Shown here: piece by piece, positions 11,391-57,514 of the stretch | How the letters are laid out: each line of letters opens with the position of its first letter | How positions within the stretch are numbered: the first letter of the stretch is position 1 | DNA from: Ruegeria lacuscaerulensis | GTDB lineage: Bacteria > Pseudomonadota > Alphaproteobacteria > Rhodobacterales > Rhodobacteraceae | DNA length: 64,000 bases | Assembly (NCBI RefSeq): GCF_013031245.1 | Contig: NZ_WPZL01000004.1 | Coordinates: 62,001 to 126,000, forward strand | Reading direction: 5' to 3' | Position numbers and translations under genes: made by a program | Notes under the pieces: model-generated | Told to the model about the DNA's origin: nothing | Seen by the model: the letters and a program-made list of their open reading frames with translations, nothing else | The model's database searches: none

Positions 11391-12575
11391 TCAGTTCGAG
11401 TTTACGCTTGATTGAAGCGCATTTGCGGCATCCACAGCTGCGACCCGCGCCTGCGCTGCCTTTTCCCAGTCGGCCAAAGCAGCCTGCGCCGCATCGGGCA
11501 GGGATTTGAGTTCGGTCAGGACGGCAGAAACATCCCCATCCGACAGCGCTGCCTGCGCGCGCGACAGAATGGCATCCGGGCCGTCACCCTCTTGTGGAGT
11601 CACAGACCGGGCACCTGTCTGGCGCTGCAGGAATGCGACCAGGCCCGTGCCTTTATCCGCGTCCCGCGCATCCGCTAGCGCGGTGCGCGCCGCAGGTGCA
11701 AATGAACTGCGCAATGCGGCAAGTGTCGCCACACCCTCGCTGGCAGGGGTCGAAAGGGCCTCGGGCACCGTCACGCCACCGGCCGAAAGTTCCGCGAGCA
11801 GATCGGCATAAGGCTGACCCGCATCCAGCTGCCCATTCACCTGAGACAGGATCGCCGCGTTGGTCGCGGCTTGCGCCTTCGCGGCGGCTTTGACCTCTAA
11901 CGCCTGCGCATCCGAGACCATTTTTTCGACCTCAGCGCGCTGCGCGGCCAGTGAATCCTGCAATTTCTTCAATTCCGCTTCAAAAGCGGCAGTAACTTCG
12001 GGCGATGCGCCTTGCGTCAGCGCACCGCTTTCCAGGTCGCTCAGGCGGTTTGCCAGCGGATCAACCTTACCCGCCAGGCCTTCGACACTGGATTTCACCG
12101 CATCCAGATCCGAGGTAATCGGCGCAATCTGATCGGTCAGCGCCGTGATTTTCGTGTTCAGATCCGCACTGTCAGCAAGGGATTTCGACAAAGCCTCGAG
12201 CTGGCCGGACTGGTCGTTGAGCTTCGATTCCAGCGCGGCAATCGCGTCGGTCTCATCCGAATTGAACAGGCCGGCATTGCCCGCCGCAAACCCGATCGCC
12301 GCCGCAATCACGCCACCGATCAGCGCGGGCACGAACCCGCCGCGCTTTTCTTCCTTACGCTCAACGGGCTTTTCTGCGACCGGTTCAACAACCGCTTCGG
12401 CTTCGGCTTCGGCTTCGGCTTCGGCTTCGGCTTCGGCTTCGGCTTCGGAAAGGGCCTCTTCTACCGGCTCGGGCAGGTCAAGAAGCGCGTCGTCCGGCTT
12501 GGAAACGGATTCGACCGCCTCATCCGACTTGGGGTCCTCTACCGGCTTTTGATCGGTTTTCTTCTTACCAGCCAC
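11391..12575 (-). CDS. Mitofilin/Mic60-like inner-membrane protein
   Basis: The 394-aa protein has an acidic N-terminal tail with nine Glu-Ala pairs, one transmembrane helix at about residues 80-100 (FVPALIGGVIAAAIGFAAG), a long coiled-coil region (about 105-240, heptad-like with SKLNDQSGQLEALSKSLADS), and a C-terminal helical domain resembling the mitofilin signature. Alphaproteobacterial Mic60 homologues are encoded beside hemD and hemY, exactly as here, and shape intracytoplasmic membranes or link inner and outer membranes. It is likely co-transcribed with hemY. The function is inferred from fold and synteny. Confidence 0.8.
   Translation of the reverse strand: MAGKKKTDQKPVEDPKSDEAVESVSKPDDALLDLPEPVEEALSEAEAEAEAEAEAEAEAEAVVEPVAEKPVERKEEKRGGFVPALIGGVIAAAIGFAAGNAGLFNSDETDAIAALESKLNDQSGQLEALSKSLADSADLNTKITALTDQIAPITSDLDAVKSSVEGLAGKVDPLANRLSDLESGALTQGASPEVTAAFEAELKKLQDSLAAQRAEVEKMVSDAQALEVKAAAKAQAATNAAILSQVNGQLDAGQPYADLLAELSAGGVTVPEALSTPASEGVATLAALRSSFAPAARTALADARDADKGTGLVAFLQRQTGARSVTPQEGDGPDAILSRAQAALSDGDVSAVLTELKSLPDAAQAALADWEKAAQARVAAVDAANALQSSVNSN
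12394..12447. repeat. Hexanucleotide tandem repeat, (GCTTCG) x 9
   Basis: Nine perfect copies of GCTTCG (plus-strand reading) lie inside the Mic60-like gene and encode nine Glu-Ala pairs on the minus strand. Because the unit is six bases, slippage would change tail length by two residues without breaking the frame. Confidence 0.97.
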
Positions 12576-49148: not shown

Positions 49149-49744
49149 TGATCGATCACCCCTTTGACAGCCAGAAAATTGAGCAGTTCCAACAGGGGCA
49201 TACCCAAGACATTAAAATAGTCCCCGTCAATGGTGGCAAACAGACGAACGCCTTCCTCTTCCAGCTTATAAGCCCCCACCGCATGACGAATACTGTCCCA
49301 GTTGCGTTCAATATAGCCGCGCAGATAGGCGTCCGAACTCATCCGCATCCGCAAGCGCACCTGCCCCACATGCCGCCAGATTGGTTCACCATCCTGATAG
49401 ATAACAGCTGCAGACAGCAACATATGACGCTTGCCCCGCATCGCTTTGAGTTGCACCAGCGCGTCTTCGGGCGATTTCGGCTTGGACAAGAGCAGCCCGT
49501 CGAAGTCCAGAACCTGATCACAGCCCAGAACCATCGCACCGGGGGTCTTGTCGCTGACTTTGCGGGCCTTCATCTCGGCCAGTGTGTCCGCGATATCGCG
49601 GGGCGGCGCGTTTTCGGCCAGCAGAGCGCGTTTGGCTGTATCCTCGTCAACGCGCGCGGTCTGCACGGTGAACGGCACGCCCGCATTCCGCAACAGCTGT
49701 GCGCGAATGGATGACCCCGACGCCAGGATGATGGGGACAGACAT
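49145..49744 (-). CDS. maf: Maf-family nucleotide pyrophosphatase
   Basis: Maf proteins hydrolyse non-canonical or modified nucleoside triphosphates. The 199-aa protein begins PIILASGSSIRAQLLRNAGV and includes GAMVLGCDQVLDFDGLLLSK (Asp base) and YKLEEEGVRLFATIDGDYFN. The ATG at 49744 is chosen since family homology begins at residue 3; the open frame upstream lies in the putative origin. First gene of maf-aroE-coaE-dnaQ. Confidence 0.95.
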   Translation of the reverse strand: MSVPIILASGSSIRAQLLRNAGVPFTVQTARVDEDTAKRALLAENAPPRDIADTLAEMKARKVSDKTPGAMVLGCDQVLDFDGLLLSKPKSPEDALVQLKAMRGKRHMLLSAAVIYQDGEPIWRHVGQVRLRMRMSSDAYLRGYIERNWDSIRHAVGAYKLEEEGVRLFATIDGDYFNVLGMPLLELLNFLAVKGVIDQ

Positions 49745-50148
49745 GTGGAAAACCCCCTGAGCAAATCGTTGAGTGTTCTGGGATGGTTTGTATGGTTTTC
49801 CGGTTGACACGCAACCCCGGGAAATTCGCGAAAACCTCCCCTGAGTCGCTCGAACTCTGTCCAATCGGGACAAGGATAAGTTCCAAATGCGGGATAACGG
49901 AGATCTCCCGTGTTACCCAAAGGGTTATCCCCAGAGATGTATATTCAGAACCAATATAACTTGCTGTAATAGCATAATTTTTTATAGAATCAACAGAATC
50001 ACCTCATTTGGAAATATTTCTGTCCACCTGGGGAAAACGTTTGGGTAAAAAAGTAATCCACGGAAATTACCCACCCTACAAAACCATCTTCCTTTTTCTT
50101 TTCTTATTTTTTTATTAGGGAGGGTTCCGAGCAACGACCGGAGCCGGA
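49745..50148. other. Putative chromosomal replication origin (oriC)
   Basis: The 404-bp gap separates maf (minus) and hemJ (plus); all flanking genes point away from it. DnaA-box-like nonamers: TGTGGAAAA at 49744-49752 (complement TTTTCCACA, one mismatch to TTATCCACA), TTATCCCCA at 49925-49933 (one mismatch), TGGGGAAAA at 50029-50037 (two mismatches), and TAATCCACG near 50054. An AT-rich block spans about 49939-49995 and a T-rich tract 50089-50118. Three GANTC methylation sites lie at 49843, 49987 and 49996. In Caulobacter the origin is likewise beside the maf-aroE-coaE-dnaQ-secB block. Function is inferred. Confidence 0.8.
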
Positions 50149-50598
50149 ATGACCGATCTTCTTTTCACGATTTACCCGTGGGTGAAGTCTTTACACATCA
50201 TGGCCGTGATCTCGTGGATGGCTGGGTTGTTCTATCTGCCCAGGCTGTTCGTCTATCACGTAGAAAAAGCGCAAGCTGTCGACGGGGCGCAGGAAATCTT
50301 CTTTGAAATGGAAGAAAAGCTTTTGCGTGTGATCATGCGCCCTGCGATGTACGTGGCGTGGATCTGCGGGCTGATCATGGTCTTTACGCCAGGCATCGTC
50401 GGGTGGGACTGGACCTGGCCGTGGGTTAAAGGTGCAGCCGTGATCGGCATGACCTGGTTTCATCACTGGCTGATGGCACGGCGCAAGGATTTCCTGGAAG
50501 GCCGAAATACGCTCACTGGGCGCCAGTATCGCATGATGAACGAGGTTCCCACCGTTTTGATGGTTGCCATCGTCCTGGCGGTCGTTCTGAAGTTCTGA
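50149..50598 (+). CDS. hemJ: Protoporphyrinogen IX oxidase HemJ
   Basis: HemJ oxidises protoporphyrinogen IX to protoporphyrin IX in the membrane, the penultimate step to heme. The 149-aa protein has four helices and the conserved His in WVKSLHIMAVISWMAGLFYL, Arg/Pro segment LPRLFVYH, KLLRVIMRPAMYVAWICG and WFHHWLMARRKDF. It is the first plus-strand gene after the putative origin. hemD lies in the same window 36 kb away; the terminal ferrochelatase gene is not seen. Confidence 0.95.
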   Translation: MTDLLFTIYPWVKSLHIMAVISWMAGLFYLPRLFVYHVEKAQAVDGAQEIFFEMEEKLLRVIMRPAMYVAWICGLIMVFTPGIVGWDWTWPWVKGAAVIGMTWFHHWLMARRKDFLEGRNTLTGRQYRMMNEVPTVLMVAIVLAVVLKF

Positions 50599-53316: not shown

Positions 53317-55194
53317 GTGTTTCACGTGAAACATTCAAAGTTCGATGTCGTTGTGGTTGGCGCTGGACATGCCGGAACCGAAGCTGCGCATGCCGCAGCA
53401 CGCATGGGTGCTGAAACCGCTCTGGTCACCCTGTCCGCGTCAGACATCGGAGTGATGTCCTGCAATCCGGCAATAGGCGGCTTAGGTAAGGGACATCTGG
53501 TTCGGGAAATTGACGCGCTGGATGGCGTTATGGGGCGCGTTGCGGATCAAGCCGGAATTCAGTTTCGCCTTTTGAACCGCCGGAAAGGACCTGCGGTTCA
53601 AGGTCCAAGGACTCAGGCGGATCGCGCGCTGTATCGCGCTGCTATGCAAAAAGAAACCCATGCCCAGCAACGACTAACAGTTGTAGTTGGTGAGGTTGTT
53701 GACTTTTTGATGGACGGGTCACGGGTAGCTGGTATCAGGCTGGCTGATGAGTCTGAAATCCATGCTGAGGCAGTTATTCTGACATCTGGCACATTTTTGC
53801 GTGGTGTCATTCATATTGGAGATGTATCCCGCCCAGGTGGTCGTATGGGTGGTCGGCCTTCAGTCAAACTGGCAGAAAGGTTGGACAGCTTCGATTTACC
53901 TTTGGGACGGCTGAAAACGGGTACCCCACCCAGGTTGGACGGTCGCACAATTGATTGGTCAGAGCTTGAACGACAGGATGGAGATGAAGAGCCCACGTTA
54001 TTTTCCTTCCTCTCGACTTCGGTTGTCGCGCCGCAAATTTCCTGCGGAATCACGCATACAAATACGCGTACCCATGAAATTATTGAAAAAAATCTGTCCA
54101 GATCCGCGATGTACGGCGGGCATATAGATGGTATAGGTCCACGATATTGTCCGTCGATCGAGGACAAGATTGTCCGCTTTTCCGACAAAGAATCGCATCA
54201 GATTTTTCTGGAACCTGAGGGGGTCAACGATCATACGATTTATCCCAACGGAATTTCCACGTCGCTGCCACAGGATGTACAGCAGGAATATGTCCGCTCG
54301 ATCATGGGGCTTGAAAATGCGGAAATTCTTCAACCGGGTTATGCGATTGAATATGATTATGTGGATCCCCGCGTACTGACGTCTTCACTGTCACTGCCGG
54401 ACGCCCCCGGCCTATATCTTGCGGGCCAAATCAACGGAACCACAGGATATGAGGAAGCTGCGGCGCAAGGCTTAGTTGCTGGCTTGAATGCTGCATTGGA
54501 AGTTTTTGGACGAAACCCGGTCCATTTTTCTCGGGCCGATAGTTATATCGGCGTGATGATCGACGATCTGACAACGCGTGGCGTCGCGGAACCCTATCGA
54601 ATGTTTACTTCTCGGGCAGAGTTTCGATTATCTCTGCGAGCAGATAACGCCGATCAAAGGCTGACGCACGTTGGGCTTCAATTGGGGTGCGTCGGCGACA
54701 GGCGCAAGGCCAGGTTCGGTGAAAAGATGGAAATGCTGACGGCGGCCAAGTCGAAACTATCGGAACGGACTTATACCCCGAAAGAGATCAGGGCAGTTGG
54801 CATTAACGTCAATCAAGATGGGAACCGTCGGGATGGTTTCGCAATCTTGGCTTTCCCCGACGTTGCTTTTGACGACTTGATTCCTCTGGTTCCTTCGTTG
54901 CGTGAAGTTGAGCCTGATATTCGATTACAGGTCGAGCGTGACGCACTTTATGCAAATTACATCGCGCGGCAACAAAAGGACGTCGAAGCTATGAAGCGCG
55001 ACGAATCCTATGAAATTCCACGTGATTTTGACTATTTCTTGCTGGAAGGCCTGTCTTCCGAGATAAAACAAAAGCTTTCGCAGGCGCGGCCTGAGACAAT
55101 TGCTCAGGCAAGCCGGGTTGAGGGGGTTACCCCAGCCGCACTTACGTTATTGCTGGCAAAGCTAAGGCGCGAGCAAAAGGTCCGTAAAGCATGA
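53317..55194 (+). CDS. mnmG: tRNA uridine-5-carboxymethylaminomethyl modification enzyme MnmG (GidA)
   Basis: This 625-aa FAD protein is the partner of MnmE. It starts with GTG; codons 1-6 coincide with a perfect parS site, giving the unusual N-terminus fMet-Phe-His-Val-Lys-His. Then FAD-binding [19 protein letters not shown] (about 15-33), [20 protein letters not shown] with the conserved Cys, and late [20 protein letters not shown]. Overlaps rsmG by four bases. Third-position base use is more AT-leaning than in rho upstream. Confidence 0.98.
53318..53333. other. parS centromere site 1
   Basis: TGTTTCACGTGAAACA is a perfect 16-bp palindrome identical to the bacterial parS consensus bound by ParB. 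It lies over the GTG start of mnmG, about 3.2 kb from the putative origin and 3.3 kb from parB. Confidence 0.96.
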
Positions 55195-55805
55195 GCTATG
55201 CGAATTTTGAGAACTTGGGTGTTTCACGTGAAACATTCAACCGCCTTGAGGCATATGTTGACCTGGTCCGACGGTGGAACCCAAAAATCAATCTGGTGTC
55301 GCGAAACAGTTTGAACGACATTTGGACGCGGCACATTCAGGACTCTGTTCAAGTCTTTCGTTGCGCGGATTCATTTGACACCTGGGCAGACCTTGGCAGC
55401 GGGGGCGGATTTCCCGGAATGGTCTGTGCACTTATGGCGATTGAGGAAGCACCGGGAACTCATTTTACGTTCGTGGAAAGCGATCAGAGAAAGTCAGCTT
55501 TTTTACGCAATGTCTCCCGTGAGTGCGGCGCAAACTGCACGGTTATTTCAAGACGTATCGAAGCAGTTGACCTACTGAATGCGGATATCCTGTCAGCACG
55601 TGCTTTGGCTGATCTGAATACTCTATTGTCCTTTTGTGACAGACATTTAAGCAAATCCGGTACCGCCCTGTTGCCGAAAGGCGCGAACTGGAAAAAAGAG
55701 GTGGAGGACGCGCGCGAAGAATGGAGTTTCGATTCTGAGGCGATTACAAGTTTAACTGAACCCCAGGCTGTTATCCTAAAGATCAAAGGAGTATCACGTG
55801 GTTGA
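55191..55805 (+). CDS. rsmG: 16S rRNA (guanine527-N7) methyltransferase RsmG (GidB)
   Basis: RsmG methylates G527 of 16S rRNA (loss gives low-level streptomycin resistance in other bacteria). The 204-aa protein has the SAM-binding [37 protein letters not shown] and [17 protein letters not shown]. Codons 10-15 coincide with the second parS site. It overlaps mnmG by four bases and parA by eight bases. Confidence 0.97.
55220..55235. other. parS centromere site 2
   Basis: TGTTTCACGTGAAACA, identical to site 1, lies inside rsmG 1.9 kb from it and about 0.6 kb before parA. Two perfect 16-mers in this spacing cannot be chance. Confidence 0.96.
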
Positions 55806-56610
55806 TCTGTCTCGCCCCTCAGGGCCCCGGATAATTGCGGTTGCCAATCAAAAAGGTGGGGTGGGAAAAACGACGACTGCGATAAATCTTGCTGCAGGAA
55901 TGGCTGAAGCCGGATGCAAAGTGTTGGTTGTCGATCTTGATCCGCAGGGAAACGCGTCCACTGGTCTTGGCGTGGAAGATCGGGACTGGACAACATATGA
56001 TCTTATTCTTGATGATGCGCCGCTTGATGCCGTTGTACAGGATACTGAAATCCAGGGTCTTTTTGTTGTGCCGGCAACTGTAGATCTGAGTTCGGCGGAT
56101 ATTGAGCTGATATCCAATGAAAAGCGCAGTTATTTGTTGCACGATGCGTTACGTCAGACCGCGATCGACAAGTTTGATCTGGATTTTGTTCTGATCGATT
56201 GCCCTCCGTCCCTGAATCTTCTGACCGTTAATGCAATGGTTGCCGCCCATTCGGTTTTGGTCCCGTTACAAAGTGAGTTTTTCGCGCTGGAGGGTTTGTC
56301 GCAGCTGATGTTGACGATCCGAGAAGTCCGACAAACCGCGAATCCGGACCTCAGAATCGAAGGTGTTGTGTTAACCATGTATGACAACCGCAATAACTTG
56401 TCCCGGCAGGTTGAGAAAGACGCGCGTGACAATCTGGGTGAGATGGTATTTAAAACCAAGATACCCAGAAATGTGCGGGTCAGCGAAGCGCCTTCATACG
56501 CATTGCCGGTTCTGCAATATGATTCAGGGTCGCTCGGTGCGATGGCATATCGGCATTTGGCACGCGAAGTGATCCACAAAAATAAAAATGTGTCGGCTGA
56601 GCGACAGTGA
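55798..56610 (+). CDS. parA: Chromosome partitioning ATPase ParA
   Basis: This 270-aa Walker-type ATPase drives movement of the ParB-parS complex. N-terminal RIIAVANQKGGVGKTTTAIN contains the deviant Walker A (residues 19-26), then VLVVDLDPQGNASTGLG, VLIDCPPSLNLLTVNAMVAA and LVPLQSEFFALEGLSQLM. GTG start with AAAGGAG upstream, overlapping rsmG by eight bases. Confidence 0.98.
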   Translation: MVDLSRPSGPRIIAVANQKGGVGKTTTAINLAAGMAEAGCKVLVVDLDPQGNASTGLGVEDRDWTTYDLILDDAPLDAVVQDTEIQGLFVVPATVDLSSADIELISNEKRSYLLHDALRQTAIDKFDLDFVLIDCPPSLNLLTVNAMVAAHSVLVPLQSEFFALEGLSQLMLTIREVRQTANPDLRIEGVVLTMYDNRNNLSRQVEKDARDNLGEMVFKTKIPRNVRVSEAPSYALPVLQYDSGSLGAMAYRHLAREVIHKNKNVSAERQ

Positions 56611-56620
56611 GGAGGGCGCA

Positions 56621-57514
56621 GTGACCGTCAAAAAATCAAAATCCAGAGGATTGGGCCGTGGGCTGTCCGCTCTTATGGCTGATGTGACGCAGGATGTTGA
56701 AGGTCTGGCCCCGATGGAACCCCGCCGCCCCGACCTGAAAATTCCGATTGAAAAACTGCGTGCCAATCCAAACCAGCCACGCAGGACGTTTTCGCAGGAT
56801 CAATTGAATGAGCTGGCAGCCTCGGTCAAGGAAAAGGGGATCATTCAACCGCTGATCGTGCGTGAAATCAATGGCGGTGAGTATGAAATTGTAGCCGGTG
56901 AGCGCCGCTGGCGCGCGGCCCAAATGGCACAATTGCACGATATTCCGGTTATCGTGCGGGATTTCGACGACACCGAGGTGTTGGAAGTTGCCATCATCGA
57001 AAATATTCAGCGTGCAGACCTGAACGCGGTGGAAGAAGCCGCAGGTTTCAAGCAGTTGATGGACCGCTTTGGTCATACGCAGGAAAAGCTGGCCGAAGCC
57101 CTGGGAAAAAGCCGCAGCCATATAGCAAACCTGCTGCGTTTGTTATCTTTGCCATTGGATGTTCAGACACTGGTGATCGAGGGTAAGCTTTCGGCTGGCC
57201 ACGCACGGGCACTCATCACGTCTGAGAACCCCTCTGAACTGGCGAAAATCGTTGTACGAGATGGGCTTTCCGTGCGCGCGACCGAAGCTCTGGTCAGGAA
57301 ACAGCAAGCTGATCCGGCGAAATCCGCACCACGCTCGAGAAACCTGGATGCCGGCAAAGACGCGGATACGCGGGCTTTGGAAAAAGACCTGTCCGCGATT
57401 CTGGCGATGAAGGTCGCGATCAATCACAAGGCGGGAACGGAAACGGGGCAAGTGGTCTTGACCTATGAAAACCTTGATCAGCTTGACGATCTGTGTGCCA
57501 AGCTCAGCCGTTAG
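56621..57514 (+). CDS. parB: Chromosome partitioning protein ParB
   Basis: The 297-aa CTP-dependent DNA clamp binds parS. It has RGLGRGLSALMAD at the N-terminus, the CTPase/ParB domain with LRANPNQPRRTFSQDQLNEL and EIVAGERRWRAAQMA (the GERRxRA box), an HTH (TQEKLAEALGKSRSHIANLL) and a C-terminal dimer domain. The GTG at 56621 is chosen for the GAGGAGG five to ten bases upstream. Its last 11 bases overlap the convergent DUF454 gene. Confidence 0.98.
   Translation: MTVKKSKSRGLGRGLSALMADVTQDVEGLAPMEPRRPDLKIPIEKLRANPNQPRRTFSQDQLNELAASVKEKGIIQPLIVREINGGEYEIVAGERRWRAAQMAQLHDIPVIVRDFDDTEVLEVAIIENIQRADLNAVEEAAGFKQLMDRFGHTQEKLAEALGKSRSHIANLLRLLSLPLDVQTLVIEGKLSAGHARALITSENPSELAKIVVRDGLSVRATEALVRKQQADPAKSAPRSRNLDAGKDADTRALEKDLSAILAMKVAINHKAGTETGQVVLTYENLDQLDDLCAKLSR

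Follow-up and report, generated by a model that had tools for sequence, protein, structure and literature searches.

A predicted chromosomal replication origin in the maf–hemJ gap of Ruegeria lacuscaerulensis and its conserved candidate DNA-opening element

Where does the chromosome of Ruegeria lacuscaerulensis begin its replication? The initial annotation of a 64,000-nucleotide stretch of this genome (the window), which is part of a 349,803-bp contig in a 5.27-Mb draft assembly of 106 contigs, had proposed a putative chromosomal origin in the intergenic gap between maf and hemJ. Our analysis bears this out: the skew changepoint, the KOPS polarity, a cluster of DnaA boxes beyond chance, a conserved anatomy with an AT-rich, easily melted segment, and nearby parS sites converge on the gap, and we therefore predict with high confidence that it is the chromosomal replication origin (oriC). 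Judged from its sequence, it is almost certainly a bacterial origin of the ordinary type; its DNA-opening element is unusual in how clear it is and how well relatives conserve it.

Origins have been predicted in this family before. Kopejtka et al. 2019 obtained oriC predictions for 101 of 109 Rhodobacteraceae strains by Ori-Finder and manual curation, using the same kind of criteria, namely a skew minimum, low local GC, DnaA boxes and parAB proximity (PMC6699656), and Tomasch et al. applied such predictions to 179 closed alphaproteobacterial genomes (PMC8116508); maf is itself among the Ori-Finder indicator genes (PMC3794950). Hence, an origin at the maf–hemJ gap was to be expected, and the useful part of the present finding is the conserved unwinding element at base level. 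We describe here the anatomy and conservation of the locus, whereas the flanking genes and the unwinding element do not appear in the accessible part of the account of Kopejtka et al. (PMC6699656). More generally, we found neither marker-frequency mapping nor an account of the flanking genes for an origin from Ruegeria or other Rhodobacterales in the literature consulted, which does not prove that none exists.

As had been noted initially, the genes on the two sides of the 404-bp gap diverge, maf starting with an ATG at 49744 on the minus strand and hemJ with an ATG at 50149 on the plus strand. The gene order reads coaE, aroE and maf on the minus strand, the gap, and then hemJ, rho, mnmE, mnmG, rsmG, parA and parB on the plus strand. 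The top NCBIfam matches of these neighbors are to Maf, HemJ, Rho, MnmE, MnmG, RsmG, ParA-type, ParB-type, AroE and CoaE, the scores for Maf, HemJ and ParA lying below the curated cut-offs and that for the ParB domain model above. The closest hemJ relatives are from Ruegeria, with identity of up to 95%. The origin gene block with parAB and parS nearby, also recognized at the outset, is present:

49745..50148, no strand: whole intergenic predicted oriC region, marked by the skew changepoint, the box cluster, and conserved length and anatomy
53318..53333, plus strand: parS TGTTTCACGTGAAACA at the 5' end of mnmG, exact match
55220..55235, plus strand: parS TGTTTCACGTGAAACA near the 5' end of rsmG, exact match
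55798..57514, plus strand: parA and parB, by NCBIfam matches

The exact parS core GTTTCACGTGAAAC occurs only twice in the 5.27-Mb draft (window 53,319 and 55,221), at 3.2 and 5.1 kb from the gap. Both sites lie inside the coding 5' ends of mnmG and rsmG, so that the same bases would both encode protein and act in partition. Elsewhere in the window, a perfect hexamer repeat of GCTTCG (9.2 copies, 12394–12448) codes for a run of Ala-Glu within a minus-strand ORF of 394 aa (11391–12575), and this coding repeat is possibly prone to slippage. A reading of the gap as a non-coding RNA was set aside, since nothing in the window matched Rfam at the gathering threshold.

The chromosomal skew minimum expected at this gap could be sought on the contig of the draft. 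The best two-segment GC-skew changepoint over the whole contig falls at contig position 112,177 (window 50,177), 29 bp beyond the gap, and its gain was reached by none of 2000 shuffles of 1-kb blocks. However, the raw cumulative minimum lies at contig 91,810, approximately 20 kb to the left of the gap, and a fit with 10-kb blocks puts the change at contig 90,000 (p=0.002). Thus, skew alone places the switch only within a few tens of kb; a bootstrap within each side gave a 95% range of 94–139 kb for the changepoint, with the middle half at 110–116 kb.

To the left of the gap there is little GC skew (-0.007). To the right, the GC3 skew is positive on the plus strand for genes of both orientations, which argues that it does not arise there from gene direction alone; to the left, it has the replication sign in plus-strand genes only, the minus-strand genes fitting neither expectation. 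The KOPS motif GGGNAGGG reverses across the gap, with 7 plus- and 13 minus-strand copies on the left and 32 and 9, respectively, on the right (Fisher p=0.0017). In the complete relative G141, where hemJ is at 4.22 Mb of 4.32 Mb, skew samples are positive in seven of nine cases between 100 kb and 1.86 Mb and negative in ten of 11 between 2.08 and 4.21 Mb, the opposite switch being about half a chromosome off; in its 20-kb sample, the local skew goes from -0.073 to +0.020 across hemJ. Two further complete relatives gave local values at hemJ of -0.068/+0.003 (G123, with noisy sampled skew overall) and -0.019/+0.018 (G101, with flat sampled skew overall). Further, over about 8 kb, the right flank exceeds the left in skew in all 78 named loci of sufficient length (two of the 80 being too short), a difference to which gene orientation contributes.

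The DnaA-box-like nonamers on which the proposal had drawn were all found, as TTTTCCACA, TTATCCCCA and TTTTCCCCA, the last of which is the complement of the claimed TGGGGAAAA. Wholly inside the gap there are six nonamers with at most two mismatches to TTATCCACA against 1.41 expected (p=0.007, 300 Markov copies), and two matches to TTWTCCMCA against 0.03 expected (none of 300 first-order Markov copies reaching this). With the box that overlaps maf, the seven nonamers at up to two mismatches are the contig maximum per 400 bp. At up to one mismatch the signal is marginal, with one box wholly inside the gap against 0.08 expected (p=0.073), and the gap's two boxes equal, but do not exceed, the contig maximum, which a stretch at contig 109,027 also reaches; a perfect TTATCCACA is absent from the window's gap. 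Enrichment at this threshold over the whole window was rejected (11 against 7.6 expected, with 11 of 100 shuffles reaching 11). The genome-wide total of TTWTCCMCA is 117, near the 98 of a reversed control pattern, and among the 100 of these 117 matches that were listed, the gap is the sole locus with three within 300 bp. The boxes and related nonamers are as follows:

49744..49752, minus strand: DnaA box B1 TTTTCCACA, sharing one base with the maf start codon
49871..49879, minus strand: DnaA-box-like B2 TTATCCTTG, three mismatches to TTATCCACA, within the conserved block TTATCCTTGTCC
49889..49897, minus strand: DnaA-box-like B3 TTATCCCGC, three mismatches, columns partly conserved
49913..49921, plus strand: two-mismatch nonamer TTACCCAAA
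49925..49933, plus strand: DnaA box B4 TTATCCCCA, from nonamer scan and alignment
50020..50028, plus strand: weak DnaA-box-like B5 CTGTCCACC, three mismatches, TCCAC columns partly conserved
50029..50037, minus strand: DnaA box B6 TTTTCCCCA, from nonamer scan and alignment
50040..50048, minus strand: two-mismatch nonamer TTACCCAAA
50054..50062, plus strand: DnaA box B7 TAATCCACG, the conserved box nearest the T tract

Three of the seven nonamers with at most two mismatches (at 49913, 50040 and 50067) stand in non-conserved columns.

In many bacteria the origin lies at dnaA, and here the contig of the gap also carries dnaA, at about 325 kb, with an ORF behind it that we take to be dnaN. We give an origin at that site next to no credence: dnaA is approximately 213 kb from the gap in a stretch of mostly positive skew, the only TTWTCCMCA near it among the 100 of 117 matches listed is inside dnaA itself, and there is no exact parS core in its vicinity.

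The predicted origin at the maf–hemJ gap could also be followed across relatives, in 110 loci comprising the window's own, 29 from relatives (30 loci being taken after 129 of 149 genomes matched) and the best 80 of 429. Some assemblies are present twice among these (L003/L104 and L004/L117), and 108 distinct sequences were aligned. The gap between maf and hemJ is kept in all 110, at 359–456 bp, and at 402–417 bp in 97 of them. The alignment presents conserved blocks at B1 (whose commonest form, GTTTTCCAC, is found in 62 of the 108), B2, B4, B6, B7 and the element CTACAAAACCATC[A/T]TCC, with weaker conservation at B3 and B5. Of the 99 loci with the box, 63 have a spacing of 21 from B7 to CTAC and 14 a spacing of 22 (77 of 99 together); 11 of the 110 lack the [T/A]ATCCAC box, 11 more lack a CTAC after it, and the first CTAC counted is not always the homologous one. 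Three Leisingera loci (L125, L141 and L148) have a spacing of 12, shorter by about 10 bp or one helical turn, which suggests either a phase-preserving shift or the loss of one of two tandem boxes; the same value in L111 comes from a chance CTAC within the spacer. The pattern of box, spacer and CTACAAAACCATC occurs once in the genome, and a broad pattern matches 72 of 292 genomes, some of these matches plainly falling at other loci, one of them a second match in this genome.

In four loci (G016:C21, G327:C21, L026 and L031), two box-like sites stand 9 bp apart before the CTAC-like element, resembling the paired boxes of the Bacillus subtilis unwinding system. A second box directly after B7, present in some relatives, was rejected as a feature of the locus, as it is not conserved in Ruegeria.

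The departure of the boxes from the consensus had been read as a possible DnaA preference peculiar to this lineage, and this part of the proposal is not borne out. The C-terminal domain of DnaA aligns without gaps to the DnaA chain 1j1v_A, presumably from the E. coli DnaA–DNA complex, and its helix-turn-helix matches that chain, with the stretches ARPRQ and GGRDHTTV, whose residues we take to touch DNA, being identical. Since, in addition, a perfect TTATCCACA is found in 26 of the 110 orthologous gaps, a changed box specificity is unsupported.

The same anatomy allows us to weigh whether the gap might simply be the divergent promoter region of maf and hemJ, with DnaA acting as a transcription factor and the true origin lying elsewhere near parAB. 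The divergent pair does need promoters in the gap, and B1 overlaps the maf start codon. A consensus scan of 49600–50400 passed no sigma-70-like promoter or terminator, which is weak evidence given that only 0.6 and 1.1, respectively, were expected by chance. However, the skew, the KOPS and the box maximum fit the maf–hemJ gap, and a promoter has no need of a near-constant length, a box-spacer-T-tract architecture and a 54-nt G-free run. We accordingly regard the promoter reading as highly improbable, and an origin in the gap as the preferred one.

Between the left and right boxes lies a candidate position for a bending protein:

49957..49969, minus strand: position of the IHF-like site WATCAANNNNTTR, enriched in relatives and degraded in this genome, from a scan of the 110 gaps

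With at most one mismatch, an IHF-like site is present in 85 of the 110 gaps, as against 39% of Markov copies, and 59 minus-strand matches fall in one central twentieth of the gap length. The window's central copy fails this threshold, the single match in its gap being at 49762. An enrichment of the CcrM-type GANTC was rejected, with six strand-wise matches at three places against 3.35 expected (p=0.23).

These elements invite comparison with Cori of Caulobacter crescentus, which is flanked by hemE and COG1806 and carries five CtrA sites, as described by Ioannidis et al. 2007 (PMC1914354). Cori extends over 400 bp, with about five DnaA boxes, one IHF site and an AT-rich stretch (PMC1914354); the predicted origin here resembles it in length, boxes and AT-rich stretch, and for the IHF site the agreement is with the position seen in relatives. 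The parAB–parS proximity typical of the Cori type is likewise seen. In contrast to Cori, the flanking genes are maf and hemJ, and CtrA-type TTAA-N7-TTAA sites number zero in the window's gap at up to one mismatch (PMC1914354). Among the 110 gaps, such sites occur in 51, with a mean of 1.36 against 0.75 expected. COG1806 (PF03618) has no match anywhere in the genome, and matches to URO-D, the hemE family, are on other contigs (C63 and C39).

Where would the DNA open? The gap has a GC content of 44.1% against 57.8% for the window, in keeping with the AT-rich core claimed for it, and only a fraction of 0.00018 of contig windows is less stable than its weakest 60 bp; its least stable 30 bp are at 50088–50117. 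The right end runs in the order DnaA box, 13-bp spacer, conserved CTACAAAACCATC[A/T]TCC and T-rich tract, the last being the tract that had drawn initial attention. The relevant features are:

49940..49999, no strand: candidate unwinding core, the least stable 60 bp of the gap by nearest-neighbour energies
50063..50075, plus strand: 13-bp spacer, containing the two-mismatch nonamer TTACCCACC (50067–50075)
50064..50117, plus strand: 54-nt G-free run, exceeding every other G-free or C-free stretch of the window, the next being 27
50076..50092, plus strand: conserved element CTACAAAACCATCTTCC, putatively the lead-in with the first DnaA-trios, from the alignment
50086..50112, plus strand: nine consecutive NTN triplets (complement NAN), a DnaA-trio pattern by triplet scan that is easy to reach in a T-rich tract

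Among the relatives, 109 of the 110 loci passed the anchor score for the element, yielding 75 distinct elements, in which the first 38 positions counted from CTAC each have 3% G or less. T recurs with a period of three over element positions 9–24 (0.68 in one phase against 0.35 and 0.33), more weakly over positions 9–42 (0.62, 0.53 and 0.53).

This arrangement recalls the basal unwinding system (BUS) of B. subtilis and others, made up of a DnaA box, a spacer (most commonly of 13 bp) and at least three NAN trios, in the account available from Pelliciari et al. 2021 (PMC8287927): box, 13-bp spacer and NAN trios are common to both. Under the published rule (a box with at most two mismatches, a spacer of 0–16 bp and at least three NAN trios), the window's gap is matched through TTACCCACC, a spacer of 10 and nine triplets; 87 of the 110 gaps pass on either strand, and the rule is lax, for 29% of Markov copies pass too. 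Unlike in the BUS, the NAN run begins 23 bp past the conserved box (10 bp past the weaker, unconserved one), and ATC/TTC/CTT takes the place of CTA as the repeated triplet (PMC8287927). In Helicobacter pylori oriC2, likewise, trios and an AT-rich stretch come after a box that adjoins the unwinding element; there the perfect trio is 5'-CTA-3', and the DNA did not open once trio polarity was reversed, according to Jaworski et al. 2021, whereas the triplet repeated here reads ATC (PMC8235120). Canonical 3'-GAT-5' (5'-CTA-3') trios do not recur in the window's gap, where a single CTA at 50076 is followed by CAA and AAC, and ATC is the triplet that relatives repeat. Pelliciari et al. suspected deviant trios, for example with loss of the middle adenine, whereas the trios here retain that adenine and differ in letter order (PMC8287927). 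We tentatively raise the possibility, on balance an unlikely one, that Ruegeria and related Rhodobacteraceae open their origin by a deviant trio element consisting of one conserved box, a fixed two-turn distance to CTACAAAACC and ATC-register trios on the G-free strand, with the letters of CTA in reverse order.

From these sequence features, we infer the following likely course of initiation. DnaA would bind the array of mostly low-affinity boxes in the gap, and a central IHF-type bend, clear in relatives and degraded here, may draw the left-hand and right-hand arrays together. From its anchor at the last conserved box (50054–50062), DnaA would then be guided over the 13-bp spacer and the conserved CTACAAAACC lead-in to the trios ATC-TTC-CTT-TTT..., which it would meet as single-stranded DNA opposite the G-free tract. 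The AT-rich DNA would thereby open at the putative unwinding site, with the helicase then loaded and two forks departing in opposite directions, as the origin fires. ParB at the parS sites 3–5 kb off would segregate the new origins.

The degraded IHF-like site and the absence of a perfect box in the window's gap might be taken to mean that it is a relic origin that no longer fires. However, this genome retains B7, the CTAC element and the length of the spacer intact, all three being conserved, and no equal TTWTCCMCA cluster exists elsewhere among the 100 of 117 genome-wide matches listed; we therefore hold a relic to be extremely improbable, and favor a functional origin at this gap.

The start of replication of an ecologically important marine lineage is thus placed, probably to within a few hundred bases. 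The resulting base-level map of box, spacer, conserved element and T tract is open to mutation, and the gap offers a natural test of how strictly the DnaA-trio rule holds in Alphaproteobacteria. If the deviant ATC trios were to prove true, the DnaA of this lineage would differ in the preference or register with which it reads single strands.
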